Positions 18,201-63,664 of a DNA stretch of 64,000 bases are shown in pieces. The notes below the pieces were generated by a model. It did not search any database, was not told the origin of the DNA, and was given only the letters and a program-made list of their open reading frames with translations. Location: positions 496,001 to 560,000 of the forward strand of contig NZ_CP054052.1 in NCBI RefSeq assembly GCF_013283835.1, read 5' to 3'. This DNA is from Poseidonibacter lekithochrous (GTDB taxonomy: Bacteria > Campylobacterota > Campylobacteria > Campylobacterales > Arcobacteraceae). Both the position numbers and the translations under genes were made by a program. Numbering within the stretch: the first letter of the stretch is position 1; each line of letters begins with the position of its first letter.

Positions 18201-21200
18201 TGGAAGTGGGAACTATACATTTGCAAATGATGTAAATGAAGGTAATGATGCTAAATATATGGTATTAGCATTTGCACCAAATGAAACAACATTTAGCCCA
18301 AGTACAAAATTAGATAATCAAGTAGGAAATGTAGATATCACATTTGCAGATAATACAGCAAGTGGAGCTTCAAGTCAAAGTAAAAATGATGGAAGTGAAG
18401 ATTATGATAATGATGCCCAAGGAAATGTAACATTAGGTACAGTAATAAGTACAAGTACATATGATGATTACTTAAGTGATAATAATGAGAACTTTACAGT
18501 AAGAATCACAGATAATACATATGCACCAACAAGTGGTGGATATGAGAATGTAACAATAGATACAAACCCAGTAACAACAACAATCAAAGATGATGCTAAT
18601 GATAAGGTTCCAAATGAACCAATTGATACTATTTACGTTCAATTAAGTGGAGATGATGTAAAAGAAGAAGCAAATGCAGCTACTTTAACTCATAATATAA
18701 AACTAGTAGATAAAGATGGTAATGCTGTAAATCTTGCAAATGGCGAAACAATTAATATTACTTTATCATATACAAATGATGGAACAGTAAATGCTGACTT
18801 TACAAGTAAGAAAACTACTGTAACAATTACTGGTAATGGAGGAAGTGATTATACTTTTACAAATATTATTACAGATGATTCTTTAAAAGAAGGTACTGAA
18901 ACATATGATGTAAAAATTGCTTCTATAGATTCTCATAGTGATTATTTTGAAAATGTAAAAATTGCTGATACTACTAATGGAGCTAATGCAACGGTTAATA
19001 GTGCAAAGGGAACTATTAACGAAGAAATTGATTTAAATGATGAAAATGAAACTGTAGTTGAGGGTGCAACTGCAATTACAAGTGTAACACAGAGTATGAA
19101 TTTACTTGATAATGATGAGTTAGGAATAAATGGTAAAATCTCAAGCTTTACTTATACTGATGAATCAGATGTTGTTCAAACTGCAACTTTAACTGGAATA
19201 CCAGGTTCTAAGACTGCTACTGTAGATTCTAAATATGGAAATATTACAGTTAATGAAGATGGAACATGGAGTTTTACTCCAGATGCAACGGAAAATAATA
19301 AAAATGGTGTAGATGATGTATTTACTTATACTGTTACAGATGATAATGGGGCAAATGGAACTGCTAACTTTACAGTTAGTGTTACTGATACAAACCCAAG
19401 TGCAAGTGCACCAGATTCAAGTGTTGATGAAGATGATTTAGCATCAGGTAGTGATACAAGTAAAGAATCAACTGTAGTAACTCAAACACTTAATATTACA
19501 AAAAATAAAGATGATATTAGTGATGTAAGTTTTGATGCTTCAACTAAAACAGCTCTAGAAGCTTTAGCTTTAAAATCTAATAATGTGCTAATTACATATA
19601 CTTTAAGTAATTCTAATCACACAATTACTGCAAAAGCTGGTGCTGATACAATATTTACAATTGATTTACAAAATACAAGTGATATAAGTGGAGCAACACA
19701 AGCTTATAGATTTGAACTTTTAGGAAGTATTGATCATGTAAGTGGAAATGCTGAAAATAGTTTAAATTTACCATTTAGTTTTAATGTTTCTGATATTGAC
19801 TCAACTGTTGCTGGAACAACATTTAATGTAAGTGTTGTAGATGATATTCCTACAGCTAATTCTGAAGCTAAATTATCTGTTGTTGAAGGTAATGTTGCTT
19901 TAACTGGAATGATTAACTTATTAGATAATGATGTGCAAGGTGCTGATGACCCAATTTCAACTGTTACAAGTTTTACATATACAAATGAAAGTAATAGTTC
20001 TCAAACTGTAAATTTATCAGGTGGTTCAGTTACTGTTGATACTAAATATGGTTCATTAACTGTAAATACAAATGGTACGTGGTCTTATATTTCTGATGCT
20101 AGTGAATCAAATGAGAGTGGAACAGATAATGTTAATACAGATGATAAAGTTATAGATAGTTTTACTTATGTAATTACTGATGCTGATGGTGATACATCTA
20201 GCGCAGCTCAAGAGATTGATGTAACTGATGGAGCTAATCCAATGATAAATCCAGCTGATTTAACAGTTAGTGAGCTAACATTAGGTTATGGAGTTTCATT
20301 AGTACCATTTACATCTCAAAATAATTTATTAAATATATCTAAGGGGTCTGATGAAATAGCAGATACTAAATTTGCAGTTTCTACAATAACAGCTTTAGAT
20401 GCATTAGGGATTGAGTCTGCTGGAGAATCATTAGTGTATACTTTATCTTCAGATGGACATACAATAACTGCTAATAAAACAACAAGTAGTGGAGCTGAAG
20501 TATTTAAAATAACTATTACTAATCCTGCTTCAACATCAGCTAAATATGACTTTGAATTATCATTACCAATTGATCATACTAAGAATGCAAATCCATCATT
20601 AGACCATGATACAGAATGGACTTTGCCAATAACAGTTTATACAGAAGATACTGATAATAAAAATGGTGTAGATGGAGATGATGATGCTATTGATACATTT
20701 AATATTATAGTTCAAGATTCAACACCTTCTTCAACTCCTTCAAGTATTGTAATGAATGAGGATAGTGGTTCTAAAACTATTAGAATTTCTCAGGATGCTT
20801 TTGATTCAGTTAAAATCACTCCATTAAATGGAGTTCAAGTTACTGTAGCAAGTGGAAATAGTACAAATATTTATGATAAAAATGGTGATGATATAATTGG
20901 TTCATTAACTAATAATGGAGATGGAACATTAACGTTTACTCCTGTAACAAATTATAGTAATTATACTACTGATCTACCAACATTTGATTATGAAATTGTT
21001 GATGATGATGGAGATACTTCTTCTTCAACTATTACAGTAGAGGTTAATCCAATTGCTGATGCACCTTCTGTTTCGGCAAGTAATGTTACAACAACAGAAG
21101 ATTCTAATAATACAAGTGAAGGAACAAATAGTGTTGCCTTAAGTCTTACAAAACCATCATTAAGTTTAGATCAAACAGATAAAAATGATGTTACAGGAAG

Positions 21201-24200
21201 TGCTTCTGGTGATAAACCTGAGAGACTTGGATATATTGAATTAGAATTTACAAATGGCGATTTTGTTATTGGAGCAGTACTTGAAAAAGGCGATGGAACG
21301 GACCTTGTAACTATATCTTCAAGTAATCAAATAGTAAAAGTTTATATTACAGATGATGCAAACTTCCATTATAGTGGACTAGACCCTGTTTCAGATGGTG
21401 CTATACAATTAACGACAGCTGAATATCAAGCTTTAAAAATTATTCATGCTGAAGATAATGATAGAGATATTAATATTACTGTTTCTACTACTTCTTATGA
21501 AGTGAAAGATGATGGAACACCTATCAGTACAAGTGATAATAACTTAAAAGAAACAAGTTCAGATAGTATGAGGGTAATAATTACTGCAAAAACTGATGAT
21601 ATATCTCTTGCTTGGGATAATAATTCTAGAGGAACAATAAGTACGAATATAAATACAAATGATACTTATACATTTAATACAATTTCTGAAGATAATGCTG
21701 ATAGGACTATTGATTTAAAATCACTTCTTACAAAAACAAGTGGTTATGAAACTGACTTAAAAGGAGATTTAGATGGAAGTGAAACAAGAACTTACAAAAT
21801 AACAGGTGTTCCTGAAGGAACTGTTCTTAGTATAACTACTATTGTTGTTACAGGTATAAATCCTACAACAACTGCCACTCAGGTGGACGAATATATTGCA
21901 GATTCCTCTGGTACAGTATCTATGACTTATACTAGCAGATTAAATGATGATGATATTAAGTTAACACTTCCTGAGAATTTTGGTGGAAATATTAGTAATG
22001 CTAAAATTGAATTAATAGCAAAAGATTATGATACTGAAACTGAAAGTGCAGATGTTGCAAAAAGTGCAGAAGTATATTTTAATATTAATATAACACCAGT
22101 TGCTGATGATGTAACTGCTGCTATTAAACAATCATTTGGAAATGAAGATGCTGGAAGAAAATCAGATGGTTCAACTGATGTATCTAGTGCTGCTTCTGGA
22201 ATTGATTTAGATGTTACAATCACAACAGATGATAAAGATGGTTCTGAAACATATACAATTGTTTTAAGTGAAATCCCAGATGGTGCTGAAATTTATTATG
22301 ATGGTAATCTAATTACAAAAACAAGTGCAAGTGTAAATGCTCAAATTACAGCTACAAATGATGCTGGTGCAAATTGGTCTTTAGAAATTAAAGAGTTTGA
22401 TAATTCTAAAGCTTTTAAAATTATACCACCATATAATTCAAATGATGATATCAATCTAAAAGTAGCTGCAAATGCTGTTGATGGTACAGATATAGGTGCT
22501 TCAGTTACAAACTTAGATTTAAATGTAAAAGTTGCAGGTGTAGCTGATGTTATGACTCATAATAGTTTAAATAGTGAAACTATTGATGATACAAATAATA
22601 TGACAAAAACATATAATAAGATAGTAAAAGAAGATACTTCACAAGTAACTTTAGAAACATTATTTACAGCTAATACTCCAGGATTTACATCTGCTGATAT
22701 TACGGGTGGAGACGGTTCAGAGAGTGGTTTTGTAATTATTACAGATGTTCCAAGTGGATTTGATATTAGTGGAGCACTTGCTTTAGGTGGAAGTGGTACA
22801 TCAAGAGAATGGTTAGTTGAAATTGCTGATTTCTCAAATGTAAAACTTGATATCCCAGCTAATTATAGTGGAGAAGTTGATTTAACTTTAAAACTTCAGT
22901 CTATTGAAAACGATGGTAATAAATCATCATTTACAAATGTTCCTTTAAAAATATTAGTAACACCAGAAACAGATGGAACAGTTAGTGGGAGCGCATCACA
23001 AAATGAAGATGAAACTGCAACATTAACATTTACTTTTAATAAAAATTCAGATTCAAATGAGAGCTTAACTTTATTAGAAATAAATACAGATTCTTTATCT
23101 TTAGCTGGAGTTCAATTATTTAAAAATGGAGTTAATATTACTTCAACTGGATGGGTAAGTGTAGATGTTAATAGTGATACAATAACTGCAAAAACACCAG
23201 CTGATTTAGATACAGATTATTCATTTGATTATAGATATAAAAATAGTGATACAACTAATGATGGTTCAGATTTTACAGACCATACTCAAAATGATAATAC
23301 TTATGATGATGAAAGTTCAAATGCAAATTATGTAAATGGAACGTATAATGTTACTGTAAATGCAAAAACTGATACTGCAACATTAGTTTTAAATACTATT
23401 GTTGATGCAGATTCGGATGCGAATAATGATATTTCTTATGATAGTGGTTCTAAAACAGTAACAGTTACAGATAATACTATCTTCGAAGTACCTTTTACTT
23501 TAACTTCTGATGATATGAGTTCAGAGGGATCTAATGGAAAAGATTTAGATGGTAGTGAAAAAATATTAGCAACTGTTGAATTATCAGGAGTCCCAGAAGG
23601 CATAGATGTAGTTGGAGGAGTTTATTTAGGAGATAAATTTGATAATGCTGGAAATGCTATTAATTCTGGAAGATGGAGAGTTGAAATTTCAAATGATTTA
23701 GTTATGAATTCTTCAAGTGGAGAGAATAATAGTATTAAATTTGCAGTAGGAAAAGGTAGCTATTCTGATATTAATGCTGCAATTACATTTACTGTGTCTC
23801 ATCAAGATACAAATGCAGAAGTTTTAACAAATAGTGAGACGTTTAATTTAGTTATAGATGGTAGTGACTTTGCAGGTACTCAACCAGATCCAAGTACTCC
23901 TCCCGTGGATTTAAATGTGACTTTAAATAGTACTAATTTTGTTGAAGATGAAGCAAAAAGTTTAAATAACTTCTTTAATGTAAGTGATGCAGATGCAAAT
24001 CCTGCTAATAATACAGGAAAGTATGCAATTACTATTACAAATTTAGAGGGTGGTACAATTTCTGGAATGGAGTTTATTGATTCAGAATTCTATTCGTTAA
24101 CAGGTACAGGAGATATAAATGATATTATAGCTTCTCTTAGTTCAATATCAATTACTCCAAATGCAAATGAAAATATTAATACACCAACAAATGTGAAATT

Positions 24201-25938
24201 TGATGTGGCTATTACTACTTATGGAGTAGATGAACATAATACATATTCATTTAATGATGTTACTACAGAAATAGCACCAGTTACTGATGCAACTAGTATA
24301 GATATTGCTGGTAGTACAACAATAAATGAAGATAGTAGTGAAATATTTACTATTTCTTTAGCAAATACTGCAGATGGAAATAGAACAACAATTATTGATG
24401 GAAAAGTTTATTTACAACTATCAGATACCGTATCAACTGATGGTGGGAATAATGGAACATTTGAATTAGTTGGTGGAACATTACCAAGTCTTACAAGTAT
24501 TTCTGCAAATAGTATTAGTGATGAACAAGGTAACTCTTTACCTGCTGGAAATTATTATGTAATTACAGGAGTTAATTTATCAGATAATATTCAAGTTAAA
24601 TATACACCGCCAAGTAACGAGTATGGAAATACTGTAAGTATTAAAACATATACTATTACTAAAGAAGATCCAGCATCTAGTGGCTATACAACACAAACTT
24701 TACTTTCAAGTACAAGTAAAACTGCAAATGTAGAAGGTGTAAATGATGGGATTACTCCATTTTCTCCAACAGCAGTAGGAGATGAAGATACTACAGTGTT
24801 CCTAAACTTTGGAGGAGCATCTTTAGTTGATTCTTCGGAAAGTATCACATTTGCTACATTAAGTGGTGTTCCTTTTGGTTTTGATGTTTATTTCAAAGGT
24901 GTAAAACAAACTGGAACTGTAGCAGGAAAAGATGCTAATGGCGATTATATTTATGATTATACATTTGTGGCTACTTCTGTTGCGGAATTAGAAACAATTG
25001 GTGTTAAGAAAATTGGAGTTGAAGATTTCAGTGGTAAGATTGAAAATTTAACATTAAAAGTTAAATCTGGAGAATCAGGATCTCAAACTGAACAAACTGT
25101 GAATAACTTTGAGATTCAATTTAGACCAGTTGCTGATCAATTATTAAGTATGACAGTTACTAAAACATTTGGTGAGGAATATGCTTGGACAGCAATGAAT
25201 ATTAATGCAAATGTAAAAGATACTGATGGAAGTGAAACTTTACAAGTACAATTTAAAGGTGTAGGAACTGCTTTAGATGATACTGCAATCTTTAGATATT
25301 CAGATGGAACAATTATTACAAGTGCAACATTTGATTCTGAAACTTGGACTATTTCTGATATTGCATACAATAAAATCAATGATATTGAAATATTATATAA
25401 AGAATATAACGGAAATGTAGATGTTGTTGTAAAAACTGTAGATACAAAAGATGGTATTACAGATACTTTATCTGATGCAAATGATAGTGAAGGAACATTT
25501 AATTTAAAAATTGATGCAAGTACTAATATTATAACTGGAGCTGAAGATAATACTATTCTTTATGGAAGTGGTAAATCAATTGATGCTGGAGCAGGAATTG
25601 ATACAATGATTTTAGGAAATAATATTGATATTGATTTTAACTCTTTAGGTAGTGATAATAGTAAGGATATTATAAATAATATAGAAAAAATTGACTTGTC
25701 AAAAAGTGGTGATCATTCTTTAACAAACCTTTCATTACAAGATATTATTGATATTACAGATAATAATAATATTTTAGAAATTATAGGTGATTCATCAGAT
25801 ACTGTAAACTTTAAAGATTTAGACAAAGATTGGACTAATGCAGGAACAGATGGAAACTATGATGTATATACAAAAGATAGTGGTGGAAATACAGTAACAC
25901 TAAAAATAGATAACGATATCAATACAAATATAATATAA
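12238..25938 (+). CDS. Giant LapA-like repeat adhesin, type I secreted
   Basis: 4566 residues. Residues 1-90 match the N-terminal retention module that holds LapA-type adhesins in the TolC-like outer-membrane pore (GEVREINGEIEIVDANG, LQEGQEIQVGNQV). An acidic linker follows (about 120-205). Calx-beta-like domains occupy about 210-468. Ten tandem 165-residue copies run from 469 to 2118, then another Calx-beta-like domain, VCBS/cadherin-like domains with NLLDND and DGTWSF motifs at about 2270-2550, and many further Ig-like domains. The C-terminus holds a degenerate RTX-like stretch (TGAEDNTILYGSGKSIDAGA) and an uncleaved type I secretion signal. There is no Sec signal peptide. The first 250 residues contain no Ala-Ala, so the LapG cleavage site is absent. 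It would form long cell-surface fibres for attachment. Ribosome site AGGAG precedes ATG. The ompA-like gene follows after 21 bases. Confidence 0.92.
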   Translation: MAEATGEVREINGEIEIVDANGNSIPLQEGQEIQVGNQVQASVQVVDGQVQIVDNGGNIVELSAGQTLELSDDLPASESPLIQNTQNNNATVNVNNVQDVVINNQNPIILDSTVTQNNTNAFQENAIDNNTLDSLENELVDETNLVADTNNENNVEDNEDEEEIQSDDSTARELDRNGEIADVIADLREPVVDVREQEENILGEELLFVEARLSISGAPIVIEGNETVYTLSLTEVPATDVVVTLSYSGVAIDGTDYTSEQEVTIPAGSKETTFTLPTIDDYFSDNNEPYTIVITDANGGSFDSLIIDPKADRVTTTIIDDSQPDTPNDDTDLIEPTLDSVTLKLIPTDINGNEIPPATINEGETAYYKVIMLDPNGNEISASGNVDITFTDGTAVRTGTSGDAELDFSANNATVALNTVFQAVALDDYISDNNETFNVQITDDTYSNASFYENVIHNTTPVVTTIKDDTGTPNTPNDGPEPTHESVILKLVALNSDGTPVLDGSGNYTFANDVNEGNDAKYMVLAFAPNETTFSPSTKLDNQVGNVDITFADNTASGASSQSKNDGSEDYDNDAQGNVTLGTVISTSTYDDYLSDNNENFTVRITDNTYAPTSGGYENVTIDTNPVTTTIKDDTGTPNTPNDGPEPTHESVILKLVALNSDGTPVLDGSGNYTFANDVNEGNDAKYMVLAFAPNETTFSPSTKLDNQVGNVDITFADNTASGASSQSKNDGSEDYDNDAQGNVTLGTVISTSTYDDYLSDNNENFTVRITDNTYAPTSGGYENVTIDTNPVTTTIKDDTGTPNTPNDGPEPTHESVILKLVALNSDGTPVLDGSGNYTFANDVNEGNDAKYMVLAFAPNETTFSPSTKLDNQVGNVDITFADNTASGASSQSKNDGSEDYDNDAQGNVTLGTVISTSTYDDYLSDNNENFTVRITDNTYAPTSGGYENVTIDTNPVTTTIKDDTGTPNTPNDGPEPTHESVILKLVALNSDGTPVLDGSGNYTFANDVNEGNDAKYMVLAFAPNETTFSPSTKLDNQVGNVDITFADNTASGASSQSKNDGSEDYDNDAQGNVTLGTVISTSTYDDYLSDNNENFTVRITDNTYAPTSGGYENVTIDTNPVTTTIKDDTGTPNTPNDGPEPTHESVILKLVALNSDGTPVLDGSGNYTFANDVNEGNDAKYMVLAFAPNETTFSPSTKLDNQVGNVDITFADNTASGASSQSKNDGSEDYDNDAQGNVTLGTVISTSTYDDYLSDNNENFTVRITDNTYAPTSGGYENVTIDTNPVTTTIKDDTGTPNTPNDGPEPTHESVILKLVALNSDGTPVLDGSGNYTFANDVNEGNDAKYMVLAFAPNETTFSPSTKLDNQVGNVDITFADNTASGASSQSKNDGSEDYDNDAQGNVTLGTVISTSTYDDYLSDNNENFTVRITDNTYAPTSGGYENVTIDTNPVTTTIKDDTGTPNTPNDGPEPTHESVILKLVALNSDGTPVLDGSGNYTFANDVNEGNDAKYMVLAFAPNETTFSPSTKLDNQVGNVDITFADNTASGASSQSKNDGSEDYDNDAQGNVTLGTVISTSTYDDYLSDNNENFTVRITDNTYAPTSGGYENVTIDTNPVTTTIKDDTGTPNTPNDGPEPTHESVILKLVALNSDGTPVLDGSGNYTFANDVNEGNDAKYMVLAFAPNETTFSPSTKLDNQVGNVDITFADNTASGASSQSKNDGSEDYDNDAQGNVTLGTVISTSTYDDYLSDNNENFTVRITDNTYAPTSGGYENVTIDTNPVTTTIKDDTGTPNTPNDGPEPTHESVILKLVALNSDGTPVLDGSGNYTFANDVNEGNDAKYMVLAFAPNETTFSPSTKLDNQVGNVDITFADNTASGASSQSKNDGSEDYDNDAQGNVTLGTVISTSTYDDYLSDNNENFTVRITDNTYAPTSGGYENVTIDTNPVTTTIKDDTGTPNTPNDGPEPTHESVILKLVALNSDGTPVLDGSGNYTFANDVNEGNDAKYMVLAFAPNETTFSPSTKLDNQVGNVDITFADNTASGASSQSKNDGSEDYDNDAQGNVTLGTVISTSTYDDYLSDNNENFTVRITDNTYAPTSGGYENVTIDTNPVTTTIKDDANDKVPNEPIDTIYVQLSGDDVKEEANAATLTHNIKLVDKDGNAVNLANGETINITLSYTNDGTVNADFTSKKTTVTITGNGGSDYTFTNIITDDSLKEGTETYDVKIASIDSHSDYFENVKIADTTNGANATVNSAKGTINEEIDLNDENETVVEGATAITSVTQSMNLLDNDELGINGKISSFTYTDESDVVQTATLTGIPGSKTATVDSKYGNITVNEDGTWSFTPDATENNKNGVDDVFTYTVTDDNGANGTANFTVSVTDTNPSASAPDSSVDEDDLASGSDTSKESTVVTQTLNITKNKDDISDVSFDASTKTALEALALKSNNVLITYTLSNSNHTITAKAGADTIFTIDLQNTSDISGATQAYRFELLGSIDHVSGNAENSLNLPFSFNVSDIDSTVAGTTFNVSVVDDIPTANSEAKLSVVEGNVALTGMINLLDNDVQGADDPISTVTSFTYTNESNSSQTVNLSGGSVTVDTKYGSLTVNTNGTWSYISDASESNESGTDNVNTDDKVIDSFTYVITDADGDTSSAAQEIDVTDGANPMINPADLTVSELTLGYGVSLVPFTSQNNLLNISKGSDEIADTKFAVSTITALDALGIESAGESLVYTLSSDGHTITANKTTSSGAEVFKITITNPASTSAKYDFELSLPIDHTKNANPSLDHDTEWTLPITVYTEDTDNKNGVDGDDDAIDTFNIIVQDSTPSSTPSSIVMNEDSGSKTIRISQDAFDSVKITPLNGVQVTVASGNSTNIYDKNGDDIIGSLTNNGDGTLTFTPVTNYSNYTTDLPTFDYEIVDDDGDTSSSTITVEVNPIADAPSVSASNVTTTEDSNNTSEGTNSVALSLTKPSLSLDQTDKNDVTGSASGDKPERLGYIELEFTNGDFVIGAVLEKGDGTDLVTISSSNQIVKVYITDDANFHYSGLDPVSDGAIQLTTAEYQALKIIHAEDNDRDINITVSTTSYEVKDDGTPISTSDNNLKETSSDSMRVIITAKTDDISLAWDNNSRGTISTNINTNDTYTFNTISEDNADRTIDLKSLLTKTSGYETDLKGDLDGSETRTYKITGVPEGTVLSITTIVVTGINPTTTATQVDEYIADSSGTVSMTYTSRLNDDDIKLTLPENFGGNISNAKIELIAKDYDTETESADVAKSAEVYFNINITPVADDVTAAIKQSFGNEDAGRKSDGSTDVSSAASGIDLDVTITTDDKDGSETYTIVLSEIPDGAEIYYDGNLITKTSASVNAQITATNDAGANWSLEIKEFDNSKAFKIIPPYNSNDDINLKVAANAVDGTDIGASVTNLDLNVKVAGVADVMTHNSLNSETIDDTNNMTKTYNKIVKEDTSQVTLETLFTANTPGFTSADITGGDGSESGFVIITDVPSGFDISGALALGGSGTSREWLVEIADFSNVKLDIPANYSGEVDLTLKLQSIENDGNKSSFTNVPLKILVTPETDGTVSGSASQNEDETATLTFTFNKNSDSNESLTLLEINTDSLSLAGVQLFKNGVNITSTGWVSVDVNSDTITAKTPADLDTDYSFDYRYKNSDTTNDGSDFTDHTQNDNTYDDESSNANYVNGTYNVTVNAKTDTATLVLNTIVDADSDANNDISYDSGSKTVTVTDNTIFEVPFTLTSDDMSSEGSNGKDLDGSEKILATVELSGVPEGIDVVGGVYLGDKFDNAGNAINSGRWRVEISNDLVMNSSSGENNSIKFAVGKGSYSDINAAITFTVSHQDTNAEVLTNSETFNLVIDGSDFAGTQPDPSTPPVDLNVTLNSTNFVEDEAKSLNNFFNVSDADANPANNTGKYAITITNLEGGTISGMEFIDSEFYSLTGTGDINDIIASLSSISITPNANENINTPTNVKFDVAITTYGVDEHNTYSFNDVTTEIAPVTDATSIDIAGSTTINEDSSEIFTISLANTADGNRTTIIDGKVYLQLSDTVSTDGGNNGTFELVGGTLPSLTSISANSISDEQGNSLPAGNYYVITGVNLSDNIQVKYTPPSNEYGNTVSIKTYTITKEDPASSGYTTQTLLSSTSKTANVEGVNDGITPFSPTAVGDEDTTVFLNFGGASLVDSSESITFATLSGVPFGFDVYFKGVKQTGTVAGKDANGDYIYDYTFVATSVAELETIGVKKIGVEDFSGKIENLTLKVKSGESGSQTEQTVNNFEIQFRPVADQLLSMTVTKTFGEEYAWTAMNINANVKDTDGSETLQVQFKGVGTALDDTAIFRYSDGTIITSATFDSETWTISDIAYNKINDIEILYKEYNGNVDVVVKTVDTKDGITDTLSDANDSEGTFNLKIDASTNIITGAEDNTILYGSGKSIDAGAGIDTMILGNNIDIDFNSLGSDNSKDIINNIEKIDLSKSGDHSLTNLSLQDIIDITDNNNILEIIGDSSDTVNFKDLDKDWTNAGTDGNYDVYTKDSGGNTVTLKIDNDINTNII
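13642..18591 (+). repeat. Ten tandem 495-bp coding repeats
   Basis: The unit starting GATACAGGGACACC recurs at 13642, 14137, 14632 and onward every 495 bases, ten copies in all, ending where GATACAGGG is replaced by GATGCTAAT at 18592. By eye the copies are identical at the nucleotide level, including synonymous positions. Each encodes one 165-residue Calx-beta-like domain with DNNENFTVRITDNTY-type strands. Such identity implies recent expansion or continual homogenisation by recombination; copy number could vary between strains or be wrong in an assembly. The unit boundary is arbitrary within the shared ACAACAATCAAAGATGAT stretch. Confidence 0.95.
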
Positions 25939-55165: not shown

Positions 55166-55849
55166 ATGGGAAAAGAAGAATTTAAAAATATTAAAATACT
55201 ATATGTTGAAGATGATGAAAATATACGAAAGAACGCAATTAGCTATTTTCAAAGATTATTTGATACTGTTTATGAAGCTAAAGATGCATTTAATGCATGG
55301 GAAATTATAAAAGAAGAAAAACCACATATTATAATTACAGATATAAAGATGCCAAAAATGTCGGGATTAGAGCTTGTAAAAAAGATAAGACAATTTGATG
55401 AGAAGGTACAAATAATCATACTTACTGCTTTTACGGATACTAGATACCTTTTAGAAGCTGTAGAGTTAGGTTTAGTAAAATACTTAGTAAAACCAATACG
55501 TCATGATAAAATGCTTCCTGTATTACTTCAATGCTCTAATAATCTTAAAGAAAAAAAATCAAATATAAAATACCTTACAGATACTTGTCTTTTTGATACC
55601 TTTAATAAAACACTAGTAAATGACAATAAGATAATAAAACTTACTAAAAACGAATTAGATTTTCTAGAACTTTTATGTGTGAATAACAATAGAGTAGTTA
55701 CTTATGTAGAGATTGAAAATAAAATATGGTATGACTCTGTTATGAGTGATGATGCTATAAGATCTTTAGTTAGAAACTTAAGACGAAAACTTCCAAAGGA
55801 TACACTAAACAATATAGCAAGAGTTGGTTATAAGATTAGTAGTTTATAA
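55166..55849 (+). CDS. OmpR-family response regulator, first iron module
   Basis: 227 residues. The receiver has VEDDEN, phospho-acceptor Asp59 (ITDIKMPK), ILTAFTD and YLVKPIR. The winged helix (about 140-227) reads LTKNELDFLELL, IRSLVRNLRRKLP and RVGYKIS. A close paralogue is at 62978, and the adhesin-locus regulator at 29791 is a more distant one. It overlaps the kinase gene by one base (TAATG), so they form an operon. Upstream are a Fur-like box and a -10 six bases from ATG. Confidence 0.92.
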   Translation: MGKEEFKNIKILYVEDDENIRKNAISYFQRLFDTVYEAKDAFNAWEIIKEEKPHIIITDIKMPKMSGLELVKKIRQFDEKVQIIILTAFTDTRYLLEAVELGLVKYLVKPIRHDKMLPVLLQCSNNLKEKKSNIKYLTDTCLFDTFNKTLVNDNKIIKLTKNELDFLELLCVNNNRVVTYVEIENKIWYDSVMSDDAIRSLVRNLRRKLPKDTLNNIARVGYKISSL

Positions 55850-57558
55850 TGAGATTACTTTTATTACTTATTTTTTTCTACTCTTTTATAAATGCTGGAA
55901 CTATAAAAAGAGAATTATATCTTGATATCTTATTATCTCAGAATAATCAAGAATTTAAATCTTATCGCTCTTTTGATTTAGAAAATGATTTATTTAAAAC
56001 AGCTACTATTAAACTAAATATTAATAAAAAGATATTGGAAGATAGAACTTATTATGTGAAAGTAACATGTGATGTGAATAAGTTAATTTATTCAAATATT
56101 GCGTATGAAGTTAACTTTGACACAATCATTTTTAAACTAGATAAAAATACTGCTTCAAGTATTAATCTTAAATTTGAATATGAAGAAGCTAAGAACTTAA
56201 ATTTTAGACTATTTACATTAAATGAGTTTGAATATAAAAATATTGTTAAGTATGAAGGTGTACTTTTTGGAATTGCTTATGGAATAATATTTTGTGCTTT
56301 TTTATATAACTTTGTGATTTTTCTTTATACTCTACAGAGGTCATTTTTTTATTACTCACTAATGCAAATATCTTTGCTCTTTGTTCTGTTTTACATAACT
56401 ATGTTAAGTAATCAAACTTTTATATCTGATATTCAACAAATTATAATAGATTTCTTTGAAACCCTTTGTATGTTACTAACTATATTGTTCTCAAAAGAGA
56501 TTTTAAATACACGAAAAAGTATGAAACAAATGAATAAACTATTAAACTTTCTAGTTTATATTCATGTTGTAGACCTGATTGCTATTTTTATATTTAAAGA
56601 ATCAATTCTTTATGGTTTTATGCCAAGATCAATTATTGTATTTATTTTGGTATTCTCTGGGGTAATTGCTTTGATTAATGGACAAAAAACTGCAATATTC
56701 TACTTTTTAGGGTGGATGGTTTTATTTATTAGTCTATTTATTTCTGAATATGAATTAGTAGGAATTGATATGTTATATATTGTTCATATTGGTTTTCCTT
56801 TAGAGTCATTAATTTTAAGTTTTGCCCTTGGTTATAAACTAAAACAAACAGTTGATGAAAAAAAAGAGAAAGAAAAAATCTTAGTTCATCAAAGTAAATT
56901 AGCGTCAATGGGTGAGATGATAAATAATATAGCTCATCAATGGCGACAGCCTTTATCTCATCTTTCATTTATAAATATGGATCTTCAAATGGCACAAGAA
57001 GATAATGACTTAAAAGAAAAATATTTATTAGATAAACTAAATGAGTCAAATAATCAAATTGATTTTATGTCAGCAACCATTGATAATTTTAAGAACTTTT
57101 ATCAACCAAGAAAAGAGAAAGAGTTTTTTTATGTAAGTGCTGCAATACAAAGTGCAATTGATATTATTAAACCATCTTTAGATTTTTCAAATATAAATAT
57201 AAACTTTAGAATTGAAGAGGATAAGAAAATAAAAGCTTATGAAAATGAGTATTCCCAAGTGATTTTGAACTTTCTTACTAATGCAAAAGATGTATTATTA
57301 TCAAGAAAAATAGAAAACCCAAAAATTGAAGTTAAATTAGAATTAGAGAATAATAGAACAGTATTGAGTGTTAATGATAATGCAGGTGGAATTAAAAATG
57401 AAATTATTGATAAAATATTTGAACCATATTTTACAACTAAAGATAAAAGTAGTGGAATAGGTCTTTATATGTCTAAAACCATAGTTGAATCACATTTAAA
57501 AGGTAATATAAATGTTAAAAATAACTCAAATGGTGCTTGTTTTGTTGTTGAGGTTTAG
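55849..57558 (+). CDS. 7TM-DISM sensor histidine kinase, first iron module
   Basis: 569 residues. A signal peptide (about 1-17) leads to a beta-rich periplasmic domain (about 20-125) and a seven-helix DISM-type membrane domain (about 135-335; YEGVLFGIAYGIIFCAFLYN). The kinase core has His363 in NIAHQWRQP, N box FLTNAKDVL, DNAGGI and SGIGLYMS. The ligand is unknown; neighbours suggest siderophore or iron-related sensing. Its end overlaps the convergent transposase-like gene by 33 bases. Confidence 0.9.
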   Translation: MRLLLLLIFFYSFINAGTIKRELYLDILLSQNNQEFKSYRSFDLENDLFKTATIKLNINKKILEDRTYYVKVTCDVNKLIYSNIAYEVNFDTIIFKLDKNTASSINLKFEYEEAKNLNFRLFTLNEFEYKNIVKYEGVLFGIAYGIIFCAFLYNFVIFLYTLQRSFFYYSLMQISLLFVLFYITMLSNQTFISDIQQIIIDFFETLCMLLTILFSKEILNTRKSMKQMNKLLNFLVYIHVVDLIAIFIFKESILYGFMPRSIIVFILVFSGVIALINGQKTAIFYFLGWMVLFISLFISEYELVGIDMLYIVHIGFPLESLILSFALGYKLKQTVDEKKEKEKILVHQSKLASMGEMINNIAHQWRQPLSHLSFINMDLQMAQEDNDLKEKYLLDKLNESNNQIDFMSATIDNFKNFYQPRKEKEFFYVSAAIQSAIDIIKPSLDFSNININFRIEEDKKIKAYENEYSQVILNFLTNAKDVLLSRKIENPKIEVKLELENNRTVLSVNDNAGGIKNEIIDKIFEPYFTTKDKSSGIGLYMSKTIVESHLKGNINVKNNSNGACFVVEV

Positions 57559-58161
57559 CATACTTAAAAGGGTTTCATAAATATAATCTGTTGAATAGTT
57601 ATATCTAAATTGAGACTCTTTTATATGAAGTTGAAGATTTTGTTTATTTACGCCTCTAAATTTTTTAACTCTTTTATCTATAAATTCTTGCATCAAATTT
57701 GAACTTTTATATACTTTTGTAATCATATAGTTTTTTTCTTTATGATTAAATAGCACTTTTGCACAGTTTGTTCGTTTATTGTTTAATAAAGATTCTTCTA
57801 ACTCTTCTTCTATAAATTCATTTATCTTTGGTAAAAAGTTTTCCTTAGAATCAATTACAAACACTTTTTTATTACATTCTATAAAATAAGAAATATTTTT
57901 TCCAAGTTTTATATATTTAATTGAAAAACTATCATTACAAAGTCTGTTTTCACTCATAAAAGATACTAGTTCTTCTTGTTTAAAAAGTATTAATGTTCTA
58001 ATGATTTTATAGTAGTTATTTATGGTTTGTCTGCTTAAATTGAGCTCTTGAGCAGTTTGTATAGCAGTATAATCTTCTACAAAATAGTAACAAATTTTTT
58101 TTAATGTTTCATTTTGAATTTTTGCATATTTTAAATAGCTTAGTATTTCTTCTTTTCCCAT
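57526..58161 (-). CDS. IS1595-transposase-like protein, catalytically dead, probable regulator (copy 1)
   Basis: 211 residues. A helix-turn-helix at about 30-52 (TAIQTAQELNLSRQTINNYYK) is followed by a shortened IS1595/ISXO2-like integrase region that ends with the family signature KFRGVNKQNLQLHIKESQFRYNY. The expected acidic DDE residues are not found: the E-D-E-S-Y start is lost, YTD is replaced and the late N-x-x-E is NLMQE. There is no N-terminal zinc ribbon and no flanking inverted repeats. ATG at 58161 is chosen because it aligns with copy 2 and TATAAT ends six bases upstream; a longer reading from 58287 would add a hydrophobic stretch not shared. Convergent with the kinase and divergent from the receptor gene. 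Regulation of the receptor is inferred. Confidence 0.78.
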   Translation of the reverse strand: MGKEEILSYLKYAKIQNETLKKICYYFVEDYTAIQTAQELNLSRQTINNYYKIIRTLILFKQEELVSFMSENRLCNDSFSIKYIKLGKNISYFIECNKKVFVIDSKENFLPKINEFIEEELEESLLNNKRTNCAKVLFNHKEKNYMITKVYKSSNLMQEFIDKRVKKFRGVNKQNLQLHIKESQFRYNYSTDYIYETLLSMLNLNNKTSTI

Positions 58162-58167
58162 AAAAAA

Positions 58168-58205
58168 ATTATATAAGAGAACTAGGGCTAAAAAAGGGCT
58201 AAAAA
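58168..58205 (-). promoter_or_regulatory. Response-regulator-type leaderless promoter of transposase-like gene 1
   Basis: AGGGCTAAAAA occurs twice in perfect tandem (58184-58194 and 58195-58205, plus-strand reading), an 11-bp direct repeat. Read on the minus strand this is GCCC-N7-GCCC-N11-TATAAT (58168-58173), then six bases to ATG. No -35 is present. The repeat spacing and placement fit an OmpR/PhoB-type activator. Confidence 0.6.
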
Positions 58206-58254
58206 TACTATTTAAATATTTTCTTGTCATGAACTTTTTTTTTAGATGTTCAAT

Positions 58255-58267
58255 TAAGATAATCTTA
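58255..58267. promoter_or_regulatory. Palindrome TAAGAT-A-ATCTTA
   Basis: A perfect 13-base palindrome between the divergent transposase-like and TonB receptor genes, 70 bases before the receptor ATG. Candidate operator for the transposase-like regulator. Confidence 0.4.
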
Positions 58268-58290
58268 GAAATAATTCCATTAAACAATTG

Positions 58291-58305
58291 TAATAATAAT
58301 TATCA
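58291..58305 (+). promoter_or_regulatory. Fur-like box before TonB receptor
   Basis: TAATAATAATTATCA matches TGATAATNATTATCA at 13 of 14 positions. It lies 20 bases before the receptor ATG, where binding would block transcription or its start. Confidence 0.65.
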
Positions 58306-58324
58306 ATACAAGGAAAATGAAAAA

Positions 58325-60436
58325 ATGAATGGAAAAAAGATTTTAAGTTTATCGTTATTTACTGCAATGTTATTGCAAGTAAATTTAGTTGCAGATGATA
58401 TTAAAAAAAGTGAATCATTAGGAAATGTTGATGTAGTTTCTACTAATTTAGAAAAAACTGGTTCATATACTGTTGAATCAATGGGTTCTTCAACAAAATT
58501 AGATTTATCAATTAGACATACTCCTCAATCGGTTTCAGTATTTACAGCACAAGAGTTAGAAGATAAGGGTATTACATCTTATCAAAGTTTACTTGCTCAT
58601 GTAACAGGTGTATCATTAGATAAATGGGATGAGAGACTAAAAGCTAGTGCTAGAGGATTTGACTTAGATTATTATAAAGTTGATGGTATGCCTTCATATA
58701 GTACTCATAATGAAAGAGATATTGATTTATCTACTTTTGAAAGAGTTGAGATTGTAAGAGGAGCAAATGGTTTAACAACTGGTGCTGGTAATCCGGGTAT
58801 TAGTATAAACCTAGTTAGAAAAAGAGCAACTAGTAAGGAATTAAAAGGTGAATTAAATGCTAAGGTTAGTTCTTGGAATGCTTATGGTTTAAGTGCTGAT
58901 GTTGGTTCAAAATTAAATGAAAGTGGAAGTGTAAGAGCAAGAGTTATTCTTAAACATGAAGATGAAGACTCTTATATGGATGGATACGAAAAAACGAATA
59001 ATTTATTTTATGGGGTAGTTGATGCTGATTTAAGTGATAGTACAACTATCTCACTTGGTGCTTCATATCAAAAACTTGATAGAACTGGAACTAGATGGGG
59101 TGGATTACCTGCTTTTGATACTAGTAATAATAGAATTGATTTAGATAGATCAAAAATTGGTTCAGAAGATTGGACTAAATGGAATAGTGAAATAAAATCT
59201 GTTTTTGCAAACCTAGATCAAACTCTTTTTAATGATGTAACTTTAAATGCTGCATATTCACATACACAAATAAATGATGAAATGGCTCTATTATATGTAG
59301 CTGGTAAATTAAATACTACAGATGGAAGTGGATTAAGTGCATTATCTTTTGAAGCAGATAGAGAAATAAAAGAAGATAACTTTGATTTAAGTGTAAATAT
59401 ACCATTTGAAGTAGCAAATTTAACTCAAGAAGTTGTAGTTGGTGGTTCTTTTAATAGGTCTAAAACAAAGAAATATGAAGGAAGATATGTTGGTGGAAAT
59501 CGTAACTATAGAACAATTACAAATTTTTATAATATAAATTTACCATTGACAGCTCCATCTTCTGCGGATACTCCTTATAGTGTTAAACCAGAACAAACGG
59601 AACAAAAAGCTATTTATCTAGCAAATAAATTATCATTAAGTGAAAAATTAAAACTTATTATAGGAGCTAGGTTATCAGCTTGGGAATATTCAAGTACAGA
59701 TTCTGCAAAAGCTACAAGAAAGTTTGATAATCAATTAACACCATATCTTGGTTTAGTATATGATCTTGATGAAAATCACTCTGTATATACAAGTTATACA
59801 AGTATTTTCAATCCTCAAAATAAACAAGATGTATCTGGAAAATATTTAGACCCAATAGAAGGTAATAGTTACGAAGTAGGTGTTAAGGGTGAATATTTTG
59901 AAGGTGCTTTAAATACATCTTTATCTCTATTTAGAATTGAACAAGATAAAGTAGGTGAAAAAGATGGAAGTAAAAAAGTTTCAACGAATCCTAAGGATGA
60001 TGCTTATAAATCAGCTGAAGGTGTTACAAGTAAAGGATTTGAAATTGATGTTGCTGGTAAAATCACTGATAATTTAAGTATGAACTTTGGTATTGCAAAC
60101 TTCTATGCACAAGATGCAAAGGGAAAACAGTTTAATACTCAAGCATCAAGAACAACTGCTAATGTATTTACAAGATATAGAATGAAAGATTTAACACTTG
60201 GTGGTGGATTACAATATAAAAGTAAATTCCATACAGGTGATGACACATCTAGAATTGAGCAAAAAGCTTATACTATTGCAAATGCAATGGCTGGATATAG
60301 TATAAATAAAAATACAAACTTACAATTAAATATAAGTAACCTTTTTGATAAGAAATATTATGAAGGTATTGGGGGTAATGGTATGACTTATGGGGATCCA
60401 AGAAAAATTACTGCAACTTTAAAATACACATTTTAA
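58325..60436 (+). CDS. TonB-dependent siderophore receptor
   Basis: 703 residues. ATG at 58325 follows AAGGA and begins a proper signal peptide (KKILSLSLFTAMLLQVNLVA, cleavage near 24). The plug domain (about 45-160) has TPQSVSVFTAQELEDKG, KVDGMPSY and VEIVRGANGLTTGAGNPG, the FpvA/FhuE-type siderophore pattern. A 22-strand barrel follows to the terminal aromatic (LKYTF). It imports a ferric siderophore across the outer membrane with TonB-ExbBD, not encoded here. The Fur-like box directly upstream supports iron repression. Divergent from the transposase-like gene. Confidence 0.94.
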   Translation: MNGKKILSLSLFTAMLLQVNLVADDIKKSESLGNVDVVSTNLEKTGSYTVESMGSSTKLDLSIRHTPQSVSVFTAQELEDKGITSYQSLLAHVTGVSLDKWDERLKASARGFDLDYYKVDGMPSYSTHNERDIDLSTFERVEIVRGANGLTTGAGNPGISINLVRKRATSKELKGELNAKVSSWNAYGLSADVGSKLNESGSVRARVILKHEDEDSYMDGYEKTNNLFYGVVDADLSDSTTISLGASYQKLDRTGTRWGGLPAFDTSNNRIDLDRSKIGSEDWTKWNSEIKSVFANLDQTLFNDVTLNAAYSHTQINDEMALLYVAGKLNTTDGSGLSALSFEADREIKEDNFDLSVNIPFEVANLTQEVVVGGSFNRSKTKKYEGRYVGGNRNYRTITNFYNINLPLTAPSSADTPYSVKPEQTEQKAIYLANKLSLSEKLKLIIGARLSAWEYSSTDSAKATRKFDNQLTPYLGLVYDLDENHSVYTSYTSIFNPQNKQDVSGKYLDPIEGNSYEVGVKGEYFEGALNTSLSLFRIEQDKVGEKDGSKKVSTNPKDDAYKSAEGVTSKGFEIDVAGKITDNLSMNFGIANFYAQDAKGKQFNTQASRTTANVFTRYRMKDLTLGGGLQYKSKFHTGDDTSRIEQKAYTIANAMAGYSINKNTNLQLNISNLFDKKYYEGIGGNGMTYGDPRKITATLKYTF

Positions 60437-60542: not shown

Positions 60543-62258
60543 ATGAAATATATACTTCTTTTTTTTATACTTTTACTAACAACAATAAATGCTTCCAATG
60601 TGGACAAATATAACAATATAGATGCTTTTGTAATCTCAGAAAATGGAGATGATTATAAAAACATAACATATGAAGAGTATAAAAAAAAGAAGTTAAAAGA
60701 CTTTACTATTAAAATGGGAATTAATAAAAAGAGTTTAGAAGAAAAGGTCTATTATCTAACAGTAATTGCAGATATGAAGTCCTTAGTATATACTAATGCT
60801 AAATACAAAATAGAAGATCATATGATGATTATCAAATTGGATTCAAGTACTCCATCTGATTTATATTTTAAATATTCATATGAAAAAGAGAATAGAGCAA
60901 AGTTTAGATTTAATGTAATCTCTAGTTTTGAATATAAAAATGTTCTTCCTTTTGAAGGTATTCTATATGGATTAGCTTATGGAATTATCTTTTCTGCTTT
61001 TATATACTATTTACTAATATACTTTTCTACTAGAAGAAGGTGTTTTTTATATTACTCAATTATGCAAATGTTTGTTTTATTATCGTTAATAGGCTTCGTG
61101 TATTTTAGTTTTAAGCCCTATCCTGAAACTTTTCCTCAAGCTTTAATTGATATCTTTGAAACATCAGCCTTTCTTTTTACATTTCTTTTTACAAAAGAGA
61201 TTTTAGATAGTAAAAAACAAATGCCATTTATAAACAATATATTAAATCTTTTTGTTTTTCTAAATTTAGCTGATATTTTAGCAATATTAGTTTTTGACTT
61301 TTCTATTCTTTATGAGTATATCTATTTTTATGTATCTTTTTTAGTAACAAGTATTGCAGGTTTTGTATCTATACTAAAAGGAAATAAGAACGCTACATTT
61401 TATACTTTAGGTTGGTTTGTACTTTTCTGTTTTGTATTTGCTTATGAGTATGAGTTTATACCTTTAAGTGGTATTTATACTATTCATATAGCAGCTCCTT
61501 TTGAGTCTTTGATTTTCAGTTTTGCCTTAGCTTTCATGTTGCAAGATTTAGTAAAAAAACAACATGAACAAGAAAAAATGCTTATGCATAAAAGTAAATT
61601 AGCTTCTATGGGAGAGATGATAAATAATATAGCTCACCAATGGAGACAACCTTTGATGCATTTAGGCTATATAAATATGAATTTAGAGATGTCTAGTGAA
61701 CAAAATGAGTTTGAAAAAGAATTCTTTGTAAAAAAGATAAAAGAATCAAATACTCAAATAAAGTTTATGTCCAAAACCATTGATGACTTTAGTAGTTTTT
61801 ATGAAGTAGAAAAAGAGAAACAAAACTTTTTAGTATCAAATGCCTGTAATCTAGCAATAAATATAATCTCATCAACTTTAAAAAAGAAAAAGATAGAAAT
61901 AGAATTAGATCTTAAAAGTGAGTGTGAAATTAAAGGTTATGAGAATGAATATGCACAAGTTGTATTAAACTTTTTAACAAATAGTGTTGATGTTCTAATA
62001 AACAGAAAAATCAAAAACCCAAAAATATATATAAGTATTGAACTAGTAGCTAATAAATCAATATTAAAAGTTATTGATAATGCAGGAGGAGTTAAAGAAG
62101 AGAATTTAAATAGAGTCTTTGAATCATATTATAGTACTAAAAAAAGAGGTTCAGGAATAGGGCTTTACATGTCTCAACTTATAATACAATCACACTTTAA
62201 TGGAGAGATAAAAGTACATAATGAAAAACAAGGTGCTTGTTTTTCAATAGAGGTATAA
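60543..62258 (+). CDS. 7TM-DISM sensor histidine kinase, second iron module
   Basis: 571 residues, a paralogue of the kinase at 55849: signal peptide (about 1-18), periplasmic beta domain (about 20-130), DISM-type seven-helix domain (about 138-338; FEGILYGLAYGIIFSAFIY), then kinase core with His365 in NIAHQWRQP, N box FLTNSVDVL, DNAGGV and SGIGLYMS. Unlike module 1 its regulator is not in the same operon; it is on the far side of the transposase-like gene. It ends nine bases before the convergent transposase-like stop. Confidence 0.9.
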   Translation: MKYILLFFILLLTTINASNVDKYNNIDAFVISENGDDYKNITYEEYKKKKLKDFTIKMGINKKSLEEKVYYLTVIADMKSLVYTNAKYKIEDHMMIIKLDSSTPSDLYFKYSYEKENRAKFRFNVISSFEYKNVLPFEGILYGLAYGIIFSAFIYYLLIYFSTRRRCFLYYSIMQMFVLLSLIGFVYFSFKPYPETFPQALIDIFETSAFLFTFLFTKEILDSKKQMPFINNILNLFVFLNLADILAILVFDFSILYEYIYFYVSFLVTSIAGFVSILKGNKNATFYTLGWFVLFCFVFAYEYEFIPLSGIYTIHIAAPFESLIFSFALAFMLQDLVKKQHEQEKMLMHKSKLASMGEMINNIAHQWRQPLMHLGYINMNLEMSSEQNEFEKEFFVKKIKESNTQIKFMSKTIDDFSSFYEVEKEKQNFLVSNACNLAINIISSTLKKKKIEIELDLKSECEIKGYENEYAQVVLNFLTNSVDVLINRKIKNPKIYISIELVANKSILKVIDNAGGVKEENLNRVFESYYSTKKRGSGIGLYMSQLIIQSHFNGEIKVHNEKQGACFSIEV

Positions 62259-62267
62259 ATAAAGCTA

Positions 62268-62882
62268 TTAAGAAAAGCTATTTAGTATATTTTTATAAAT
62301 ATTCTCTGTATTATAGTTGTATCTAAATATTGATTCTTTAAGATGTAAATAGAAATTGTTTTTATTAATTCCTCTAAATTTTCTCAGTCTATTATGAATA
62401 AAACATTCAAAATGATTATCTGATTTAAAGTAGCCAGAAGTTATGTATGAATCAGAATCTTTATTATATAAAATACGAACACTATTAGCTTTTTTATGTT
62501 GAATAAGACTATCTTTTATATTTTCATCTAAATAGATAGATAAATTAATAGGTAAAGCTGATTGTTCATTTAAAATGAAGATACCTTCACTGCTTTCTGT
62601 ATAAAATATATTGTGATTATAAATATTAATATGTTTGATTTCAATATAGTTTTGCTTTAAAATATCTTTTATTACTTTATAGTCTAATAGTATATTATCT
62701 TCATCTATTTTATTCCTAAATAGCTTATAGTAGTGGTTTATTGTTTGTCTACTATATCCTGATTCTTTGGCTGTTTGAATGGCTGTGAAATCATTACTAA
62801 AGCATAAACATATTTTATTTATATTCTGACTATTAACTTTTGCATTTTTTATTTGTATTGTTGTAATTTCTGGATTCGACAT
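62268..62882 (-). CDS. IS1595-transposase-like protein, catalytically dead, probable regulator (copy 2)
   Basis: 204 residues, the paralogue of copy 1. Helix-turn-helix at about 28-50 (TAIQTAKESGYSRQTINHYYK); C-terminal signature KFRGINKNNFYLHLKESIFRYNY. Between them the DDE positions are replaced (HINI, ILYNKDSD), although a Glu remains in NHFECF. ATG at 62882 has TATACT six bases upstream and no ribosome site. Both copies lie convergent to a 7TM-DISM kinase, and here divergent from the response regulator, the arrangement of a regulator rather than a mobile element. Confidence 0.78.
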   Translation of the reverse strand: MSNPEITTIQIKNAKVNSQNINKICLCFSNDFTAIQTAKESGYSRQTINHYYKLFRNKIDEDNILLDYKVIKDILKQNYIEIKHINIYNHNIFYTESSEGIFILNEQSALPINLSIYLDENIKDSLIQHKKANSVRILYNKDSDSYITSGYFKSDNHFECFIHNRLRKFRGINKNNFYLHLKESIFRYNYNTENIYKNILNSFS

Positions 62883-62888
62883 AATGTA

Positions 62889-62920
62889 AGTATAATAAAA
62901 AAAAATGAGAAAAAAGTGAG
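62889..62920 (-). promoter_or_regulatory. Response-regulator-type leaderless promoter of transposase-like gene 2
   Basis: Minus-strand CTCA-N7-CTCA-N11-TATACT: CTCA arms at 62917-62920 and 62906-62909, -10 at 62889-62894, six bases to ATG. Spacing equals that of copy 1 and of the tolC-lap promoter. Confidence 0.55.
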
Positions 62921-62977: not shown

Positions 62978-63664
62978 ATGTTAGAAGAAAAATATAGAAA
63001 TAGTAAAATCCTTTGCATTGAAGATGAAGATTTAATTAGAGAAAATCAAGTCTATTATTTAAAAAGATTATTTACAACGGTTTATGAAGCAAGCACTGTA
63101 AAAGAAGCTTTAGAGATCATTGAAAATAAAAAACCAGATATTGTTATAAGTGATATTGAAATTAATGATATGAATGGTTTAGATATGATTAGAACTATTA
63201 GGAAAAAAGATAAAAAAACTAAGTTTATAGTTTTAAGTGCTTATTCTACTAAAGAGTATCTTTTTGATGCAATTGATTTAGGCTTAGTAAAATATTTAAT
63301 AAAACCAATTGACCATGAAACTTTTTATCCTATATTACTTGAGTGTGCAAAAGAGATATATGAAGAGAAAAGTGAATTAATTACTTTTTGTGAGAATTTC
63401 AAGTTTGATATATTAAATAGTCAATTAATATATGAAGATAAAACAATAATACTTACTAAGTATGAAGCAGACTTTTTACACTTATTATATAAAAATAAAC
63501 CGAATGTAGTAAGGTATGATCAAATTCAAGATGAGGTATGGATAGACAATATTATGACTGATAGTTCTTTACGAACATTAGTTAGAAGTCTTAGAAAAAA
63601 ACTTCCAATTAATATTGTAAAAAATCTATCAAAAACAGGTTATAAGTTTAATATCGAAGAGTAG
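62978..63664 (+). CDS. OmpR-family response regulator, second iron module
   Basis: 228 residues, a paralogue of the regulator at 55166. Receiver: IEDEDL pocket, Asp59 in ISDIEIND, VLSAYST (Ser in place of the usual Thr) and YLIKPID. Winged helix: LTKYEADFLHLL, LRTLVRSLRKKLP, KTGYKFN. It is divergent from transposase-like copy 2 across 95 bases that hold both promoters. Its kinase partner is most likely the 60543 gene. It should bind the CTCA repeats before transposase-like copy 2, but this is inference. Confidence 0.91.
   Translation: MLEEKYRNSKILCIEDEDLIRENQVYYLKRLFTTVYEASTVKEALEIIENKKPDIVISDIEINDMNGLDMIRTIRKKDKKTKFIVLSAYSTKEYLFDAIDLGLVKYLIKPIDHETFYPILLECAKEIYEEKSELITFCENFKFDILNSQLIYEDKTIILTKYEADFLHLLYKNKPNVVRYDQIQDEVWIDNIMTDSSLRTLVRSLRKKLPINIVKNLSKTGYKFNIEE

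Follow-up and report, generated by a model that had tools for sequence, protein, structure and literature searches.

The stretch analysed here, hereafter the window, comprises 64,000 nucleotides of the 3.57-Mb chromosome of Poseidonibacter lekithochrous (NZ_CP054052.1, assembly GCF_013283835.1, positions 496,001-560,000; genome label G000:C1:496001-560000). The gene under study, copy 1, is intact from its ATG to its stop codon (58161..57526, minus strand). It lies between a two-component gene pair and the gene of a TonB-dependent siderophore receptor (Table 1). The gene of the first OmpR-type response regulator precedes that of a 7TMR-DISM sensor histidine kinase, which is convergent with copy 1 and overlaps its 3' end by 33 bp; on the other side, a divergent region of 163 bp separates copy 1 from the receptor gene. 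A paralogue with about 34-35% identity, copy 2, sits between a second kinase gene and a second response regulator gene. Within its own genome, copy 1 has only two relatives, 35% and 24% identical. Elsewhere in the window, a single open reading frame of 4566 aa was observed (12238-25938).

Table 1. Features around the two class A genes of the window, with a third relative located elsewhere on the chromosome
Feature	Position	Strand	Remark
OmpR-type response regulator	55166..55849	+	
7TMR-DISM sensor histidine kinase	55849..57558	+	convergent with copy 1
Class A copy 1, IS1016-group transposase derivative without catalytic site	57526..58161	-	211 aa; predicted DNA-binding regulator
TATAAT, probable -10 element of copy 1	58168..58173	-	two bases downstream of the repeat; read from the sequence
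Candidate operator of copy 1, direct repeat GCCCTTTTTT / GCCCTAGTTC	58176..58199	-	half-sites 11 bp apart; starts 38 bp before ATG
TTGTCATGA element of receptor promoter	58224..58232	+	
TAAG-N9-GAAATAATTCC element of receptor promoter	58255..58278	+	contains palindrome 58255-58267
Fur-box-like sequence	58286..58304	+	14/19 against a Fur consensus, a raw count
TonB-dependent siderophore receptor, FhuE/FauA-like	58325..60436	+	703 aa; divergent from copy 1
Second 7TMR-DISM sensor histidine kinase	60543..62258	+	
Class A copy 2	62268..62882	-	204 aa
Candidate operator of copy 2, CTCACTTTTT / CTCATTTTTT	62897..62920	-	half-sites 11 bp apart
Second OmpR-type response regulator	62978..63664	+	divergent from copy 2
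Third relative, class B	G000:C1:1578504-1579142 (L003:1504-2145, L093)		zinc ribbon intact; near hyp genes

An earlier note on this DNA had proposed that copy 1 is a domesticated IS1595-like transposase in which the helix-turn-helix (HTH) and a C-terminal FRG/FRYNY signature are preserved. Both elements were found, the HTH in predicted helices 17-28, 33-40 and 44-71, and the signature as KFRG...FRYNY. The NCBIfam IS1595 transposase model NF033547 matched copy 1 at its C-terminal end (profile positions 157-214 of 215, E 0.021), and its curated cut-off of 75 bits was reached by neither copy 1 (14.7 bits) nor copy 2 (12.1 bits). When the class A set (28 sequences: 26 relatives and both window copies) was searched with this model as single sequences of the alignment, 11 out of the 28 matched at E ≤ 0.1, with a best value of 0.0015. 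A profile was built from seven IS1016-like transposases that belong to other families of Campylobacterota; it matched all 28 class A proteins and all 43 proteins of a related group, class B, at E < 1e-3 (Z set to 1000), and the reverse profile searches recovered all seven transposases. With HHalign, the IS1016-like alignment matched class A at 98.3% (E 2.4e-14, 197 columns) and class B at 99.0% (179 columns). The zinc-ribbon IS1595 enzymes of Arcobacteraceae gave no profile match to class A (0/7) and 1.8% with HHalign.

The IS1016-like genes used for comparison are mobile: two copies in one genome were 99.6% identical over 762 bp, and both ended in inverted repeats starting GGCTCAAGATAAGTTA. 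A tree built on 73 rows and 201 columns, with the 28 class A sequences and 22 of the 43 class B rows among them, resolved class A and class B as a single clade each (support 100/100 and 100/98, respectively) and joined the two in a clade (100/97) nested among IS1016-group enzymes. This joint clade may have been aided by long branches, so that one domestication or two are both possible. As judged from these comparisons, copy 1 is a descendant of a transposase of the IS1016 group of the IS1595 family. The members of this subgroup that were compared (ISAcra1, ISEc69, ISEc75 and ISAba36), to which ISApl4 can be added according to the available part of PMC12561309, resemble class A in their size of about 210-240 aa, in the absence of a zinc ribbon and in their layout, where the HTH precedes a domain closed by the common C-terminal signature (FKG-like, then KE...FRYN-like). 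The claim that copy 1 has lost a zinc ribbon was therefore not supported, since the mobile IS1016-group transposases have none either. Class A differs from the subgroup in the loss of the DDE acids, in a shorter region around the second aspartate and in that matching terminal repeats were not found; moreover, its genes are single-copy in most genomes, under purifying selection and tied to a conserved type of locus.

The reported loss of the DDE acids was borne out by the sequence alignment, which contained no full DDE site in class A: the first aspartate was present in 0 out of 28 sequences, the second in one and the glutamate in one, the alignment being uncertain where the sequence is shortened near the second aspartate. 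By comparison, D, D and E were all present in the seven IS1016-like transposases and in eight out of eight plasmid-borne references. The catalytic signature of IS1016 given in the available part of PMC12561309 is DESYFG ... YTD ... HINGIENFW; set against the published signature as seen there, class A retains only the final part, of the LFIKECEFRFN type. Class A proteins are, by their aligned residues, catalytically dead.

AlphaFold models were obtained for copy 1 (pLDDT 88, pTM 0.83) and for a class B protein (pLDDT 87, pTM 0.81). The best rows of the structure comparison with the copy 1 model were HTH proteins, with Mos1 first (Z 5.6); no integrase-core row was present among the best 50, an absence that carries no weight, and all Z values were below 8. 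A Foldseek search with the same model gave no match at E ≤ 0.001. In our own reading, the order of strands and helices in the model is compatible with an RNase H-like fold. The class B model gave the Hermes transposase (Z 6.0) and then retroviral integrases as best rows, again all with Z below 8, as might be expected for an RNase H remnant. At these Z values, both structure comparisons are taken as supporting evidence only.

To describe the gene context, 28 class A loci were surveyed over at most 9-10 kb per side, some of them shortened by contig ends, with identity thresholds of at least 45% for the response regulator and at least 40% for the kinase. A response regulator was found in 26 loci, a histidine kinase in 25 and a TonB-dependent receptor in 26, counts that are inflated by shared ancestry, as is the matching of half-sites described below; in 12 control class B loci of the same family, none of the three was found (0/12 each). 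The class A gene was divergent from the receptor gene in 20 out of 28 loci as well as in the window; in six of the 28, the upstream neighbour was a co-oriented gene other than a receptor gene. Representative loci also encoded PepSY, ExbB, ExbD, TonB, AraC, RND and FeoAB proteins.

The near-constant company of a response regulator and a kinase could also mean that the protein is an accessory of the two-component system, such as a partner of the response regulator, and not an independent DNA-binding regulator. We consider this unlikely, given that residues of the HTH are among the invariant positions of class A, and that class A genes have a promoter repeat of their own whether or not a receptor gene is adjacent.

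This repeat was recovered by an unsupervised search of 26 dereplicated class A promoters, which returned a 24-column motif corresponding to a direct repeat of the [CG][AC]CATTTTTT type, with two half-sites of 10 nt each, 11 bp apart. It was present in all 26 promoters tested; its start lay 37 or 38 bp ahead of the ATG in 23 promoters, 40 bp in two and 27 bp in one. Four of 30 promoters had been set aside to arrive at these 26: L062, which contains N, a near-copy, and also L072 and L084, in which the repeat is visible but lay further upstream owing to the start codon chosen. In a leave-one-out test, each of the 26 sites outscored the 99th percentile of the controls, which were upstream regions from the same loci (216; 214 in a rerun).

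Periodic T-tracts upstream of the -10 element are a general trait of Campylobacterota promoters, and the repeat could thus be an ordinary T-periodic signal that gives no pointer to the target of the protein. The T-tract columns alone did separate the sites from the controls, although less well (14 out of 26 above the 99th percentile). However, once these columns were removed, the non-T core columns alone still placed 25 out of 26 sites above that percentile (214 controls), and the two half-sites agreed within each locus in 127 out of 156 cells, against a shuffled mean of 101.8 that none of 20,000 shuffles raised to the observed value. An ordinary promoter signal is accordingly an improbable explanation of the repeat.

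The operator model also gave hits away from class A promoters, 30 at 13 bits in 558,629 bp (both strands) and four above 22 bits, two of which lay before feoA-feoB and two antisense inside a PepSY gene, the latter being the same gene in two related genomes. For most loci, the sites therefore point to autoregulation only. The two feoAB sites (L060:12986 and L061:13414, minus strand) are placed beside a TATAAT as in class A promoters, and class A is encoded downstream of feoB in both loci; the two genomes are closely related, so that these are nearly one observation. In no locus was the class A repeat found at the promoter elements of the receptor itself. In the genome of the window, a looser pattern, which does not match the two sites of the window, gave nine matches against six for the reversed control, none of them obviously before an iron gene.

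The TATAAT of copy 1 ends six bases before the ATG (window 58159-58175), and many class A promoters appear similar by eye; class A messages may for this reason be leaderless, or nearly so. A site scan did not list the TATAAT at 58168..58173. A descent of the operator from IS1016 ends was also considered and set aside as too weak, GGCT/GGGCT being all that the two have in common.

The earlier note had pointed to the palindrome TAAGATAATCTTA in the divergent region. It was considered as an operator and rejected: across loci, the TAAG of one half is conserved, whereas the other half is not. The conserved element is a TAAG-N9-GAAATAATTCC block, present in 19 out of 21 divergent regions between receptor and class A genes and absent from L074 and L083. 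Its nine-base spacing was rigid, with 24 hits at one mismatch or fewer and none with spacings of 7, 8, 10 or 11. The TTGTCATGA element was found within one mismatch in 19 out of 24 occurrences of the block, 32 bp before the TAAG in 18 of them and 31 bp before it in the window. The window holds the only exact match to the block in its genome; with two mismatches, 37 matches were found against 17 for the reversed control, a moderate excess only. The block was also observed before receptor or PepSY-operon genes away from class A (L071, L072, L074, L077 and L084). As it occurs without an adjacent class A gene, is missing from two of the 21 regions and is only moderately enriched in the genome, the block was rejected as the protein's own site and is more likely an element of the receptor promoter or the site of a response regulator. 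The direct repeat at 58176-58199 is a better candidate than the palindrome for the site of copy 1.

Among the claims of the earlier note, the loss of terminal repeats agreed with what was found: in 57400-58400, no IS1016-type terminal repeat beginning GGC/GGGGC was present. One inverted pair brackets copy 1 (57412-57432 / 58202-58222; 21 nt, 81% complementary, A/T-rich). It was rejected as a pair of IS1016 ends, one arm lying inside the kinase gene and the start not being GGC. Mobile copies elsewhere in the genome, which the note had named along with a full DDE site as evidence against its reading, were sought and none was found: the genome of the window contained no IS1595 transposase over the cut-off and no near-identical copy. 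In the family as a whole, 9 out of 104 genomes held an IS1595 transposase over the cut-off. Class A had no match in phage records and one in plasmid records, on pACLO of Arcobacter cloacae, where it is annotated as a hypothetical protein; this gene is divergent from a siderophore receptor gene, with AraC, PepSY and a two-component pair in the same iron locus.

A dead transposase might also have been retained because it inhibits mobile IS1016-type elements by competing with the active enzymes for the element ends. The HTH and the C-terminal region are indeed common to the IS1016 enzymes, and the complement of the copy 1 operator (GGGCT followed by an A-tract) is a weak echo of IS1016-group ends beginning GGCTC or GGGGCT, known from the elements compared here and from PMC12561309. 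However, on the complement strand the first half-sites end in TGTG in 13 out of 26 promoters and in GGC in only eight, and class A genes track iron-uptake genes. Moreover, no IS1595 transposase over the cut-off is present in the genome of the window, and only 9 out of 104 family genomes have one. We therefore regard such a role as very unlikely.

Class A is narrowly distributed. Within the family, 45 out of 104 genomes matched at E ≤ 0.001, class B included, and 29 gave strong class A matches (E ≤ 4.3e-14); among nine listed genomes of the genus besides that of the window, class A was found in one. When 397 genomes of the phylum were scanned with a profile, full-length class A was detected in Arcobacteraceae only. 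The selection that the earlier note had read from the intact frame and a dedicated promoter was supported by dN/dS values (Nei-Gojobori) of 0.10-0.35 in seven out of seven class A pairs, which indicate purifying selection; one relative was used in two pairs, and dS exceeded 1 in three pairs, so that those values are rough. A decaying, functionless remnant of IS1016, as the lost catalytic residues and a relative that reads as two pieces (G013, though with a run of N in its locus) might suggest, is rendered extremely improbable by these ratios, by frames of full length and a synteny that recurs in several genera, and by the retained promoter repeat.

Overall, the proposal of a domesticated transposase acting as a regulator was supported by selection, by iron-gene synteny relative to the controls and by the promoter repeat. 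Copy 1 is probably a domesticated, catalytically dead IS1016-group transposase that acts, from within an iron-uptake locus, as a regulator binding specific DNA sequences: the loss of the catalytic site, the selection, the synteny and the double site at the promoter together make a gene switch the probable function. In such a regulator, binding of the direct repeat by the HTH would place two adjacent subunits on the same face of the DNA. Because the repeat is placed immediately upstream of the TATAAT, where contacts with RNA polymerase would be expected, the protein would repress its own gene once bound, in a negative autoregulation; iron genes such as feoAB would likewise be shut off where the repeat recurs. 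The receptor promoter block and the Fur-like sequence would probably be read by the response regulator and by Fur, respectively, so that these two would jointly set the receptor, with the class A protein occupying the opposite end of the divergent region. What remains of the RNase H-like domain would serve for dimerisation or signal input, and the signal may be the iron state, a siderophore or a partner protein.

To place class A beside its closest relatives, class B was analysed in 43 out of 44 loci, L151 being dropped as it had no class B hit at the threshold. Class B resembles class A as its sister clade, with a dead catalytic site and a motif conserved in the promoters of most of its genes, but differs from it by a retained CxxC-CxxC ribbon, an invariant glutamate, a presence in many families of the phylum and a hyp/nickel context. 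In 41 sequences, C21 and C24 of the zinc ribbon were invariant, and C3 and C6 were present in at least 90%. The first catalytic column held D in 21 and E in 20 out of 43 sequences, the second held D in five out of 43, and the third had no conserved E. The glutamate beside the first catalytic position (E94 of L093) was invariant (43/43) and is a possible contact to metal or DNA. The genes were mostly single-copy and found in several Campylobacterota families, and dN/dS for a class B pair was 0.042 (Nei-Gojobori). The upstream neighbour was divergent in 39 out of 43 loci, and a promoter motif close to CTTATATATTTTTAGAACTAA was found in 31 of the 40 promoters tested, the other nine falling below the 99th percentile of the controls. 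Pfam contained no family of class B's own.

A homologue of HypB, HypC, HypD, HypF or CbiM was encoded within four genes in 42 out of 43 class B loci (the exception being L140), and near none of the 28 class A loci. Representatives of the class B neighbours were checked against Pfam; two candidates, for a hydrogenase large subunit and a nickel transporter, had no Pfam match at 1e-5 and were not counted. Among the 397 genomes of the phylum, HypD was present in 366 and a NikR-like protein in 147, and no NikR-like protein scored above the curated cut-off of the model; the sampled Arcobacteraceae genomes had no NikR match. Four sampled Arcobacteraceae genomes without HypD (G009, G029, G045 and G052) were also without class B. 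Against a strict link to HypD, G038 and G039 have HypD without a full class B, as have most genomes of f2 and f3, and G294 has a piece of class B without HypD. NikR was encoded at most 100 bp from class B in ten genomes of family f10 (including L139 and L142) and in G409 (family f3, L158).

From such gene contexts, NikR and class B may share or divide the control of nickel. More tentatively, and with more doubt than confidence, an IS1016-group transposase could have been domesticated in early Campylobacterota and given rise to a family of regulators of metal uptake. Class B would then have taken on nickel and [NiFe] hydrogenase, as a partial substitute for NikR in bacteria that lack it, and class A would have taken on iron in Arcobacteraceae, while the former metal-binding RNase H site, the zinc ribbon or both would have passed from catalysis to the sensing of metal.

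A literature search, which covered few subscription journals, found no paper on the class A/B family. In the available parts of PMC6682613, on regulation in Campylobacterota, and of PMC9927503, on the transcriptome of Arcobacter butzleri, the word "transposase" was not found, and a review of recruited prokaryotic mobile elements treats, in the part available, regulators derived from phages and antitoxins and names no transposase-derived one (PMC8987985). Bacterial regulators traced to a DDE transposase seem rare. The family described here would be new as a group of regulators that descend from a DDE transposase, are linked to metal uptake and have conserved sites in the promoters of their own genes. 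Its members are candidates for the control of iron and hydrogenase genes in Campylobacterota, Arcobacteraceae among them. For comparison, a series is available that runs from IS1016 enzymes of sister families, still mobile and with recognisable ends, to two dead clades linked to iron and nickel.

Among known systems, TldR, a descendant of TnpB, offers one comparison. According to the available part of PMC13418256, it is likewise a transposon-related protein turned bacterial transcription regulator. It differs in being RNA-guided, phage-encoded, not derived from a DDE transposase and directed at flagellin targets. The plant factors FHY3/FAR1 are also transposase-derived transcription regulators, as described in the available part of PMC13306707. 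They differ in being derived from Mutator-like transposases, in plants. Regulators of the AraC type or the ECF/FecI type resemble class A in being encoded beside a TonB-dependent receptor; their protein architecture is unrelated to that of class A. Genes of the AraC type were themselves present in some class A loci.
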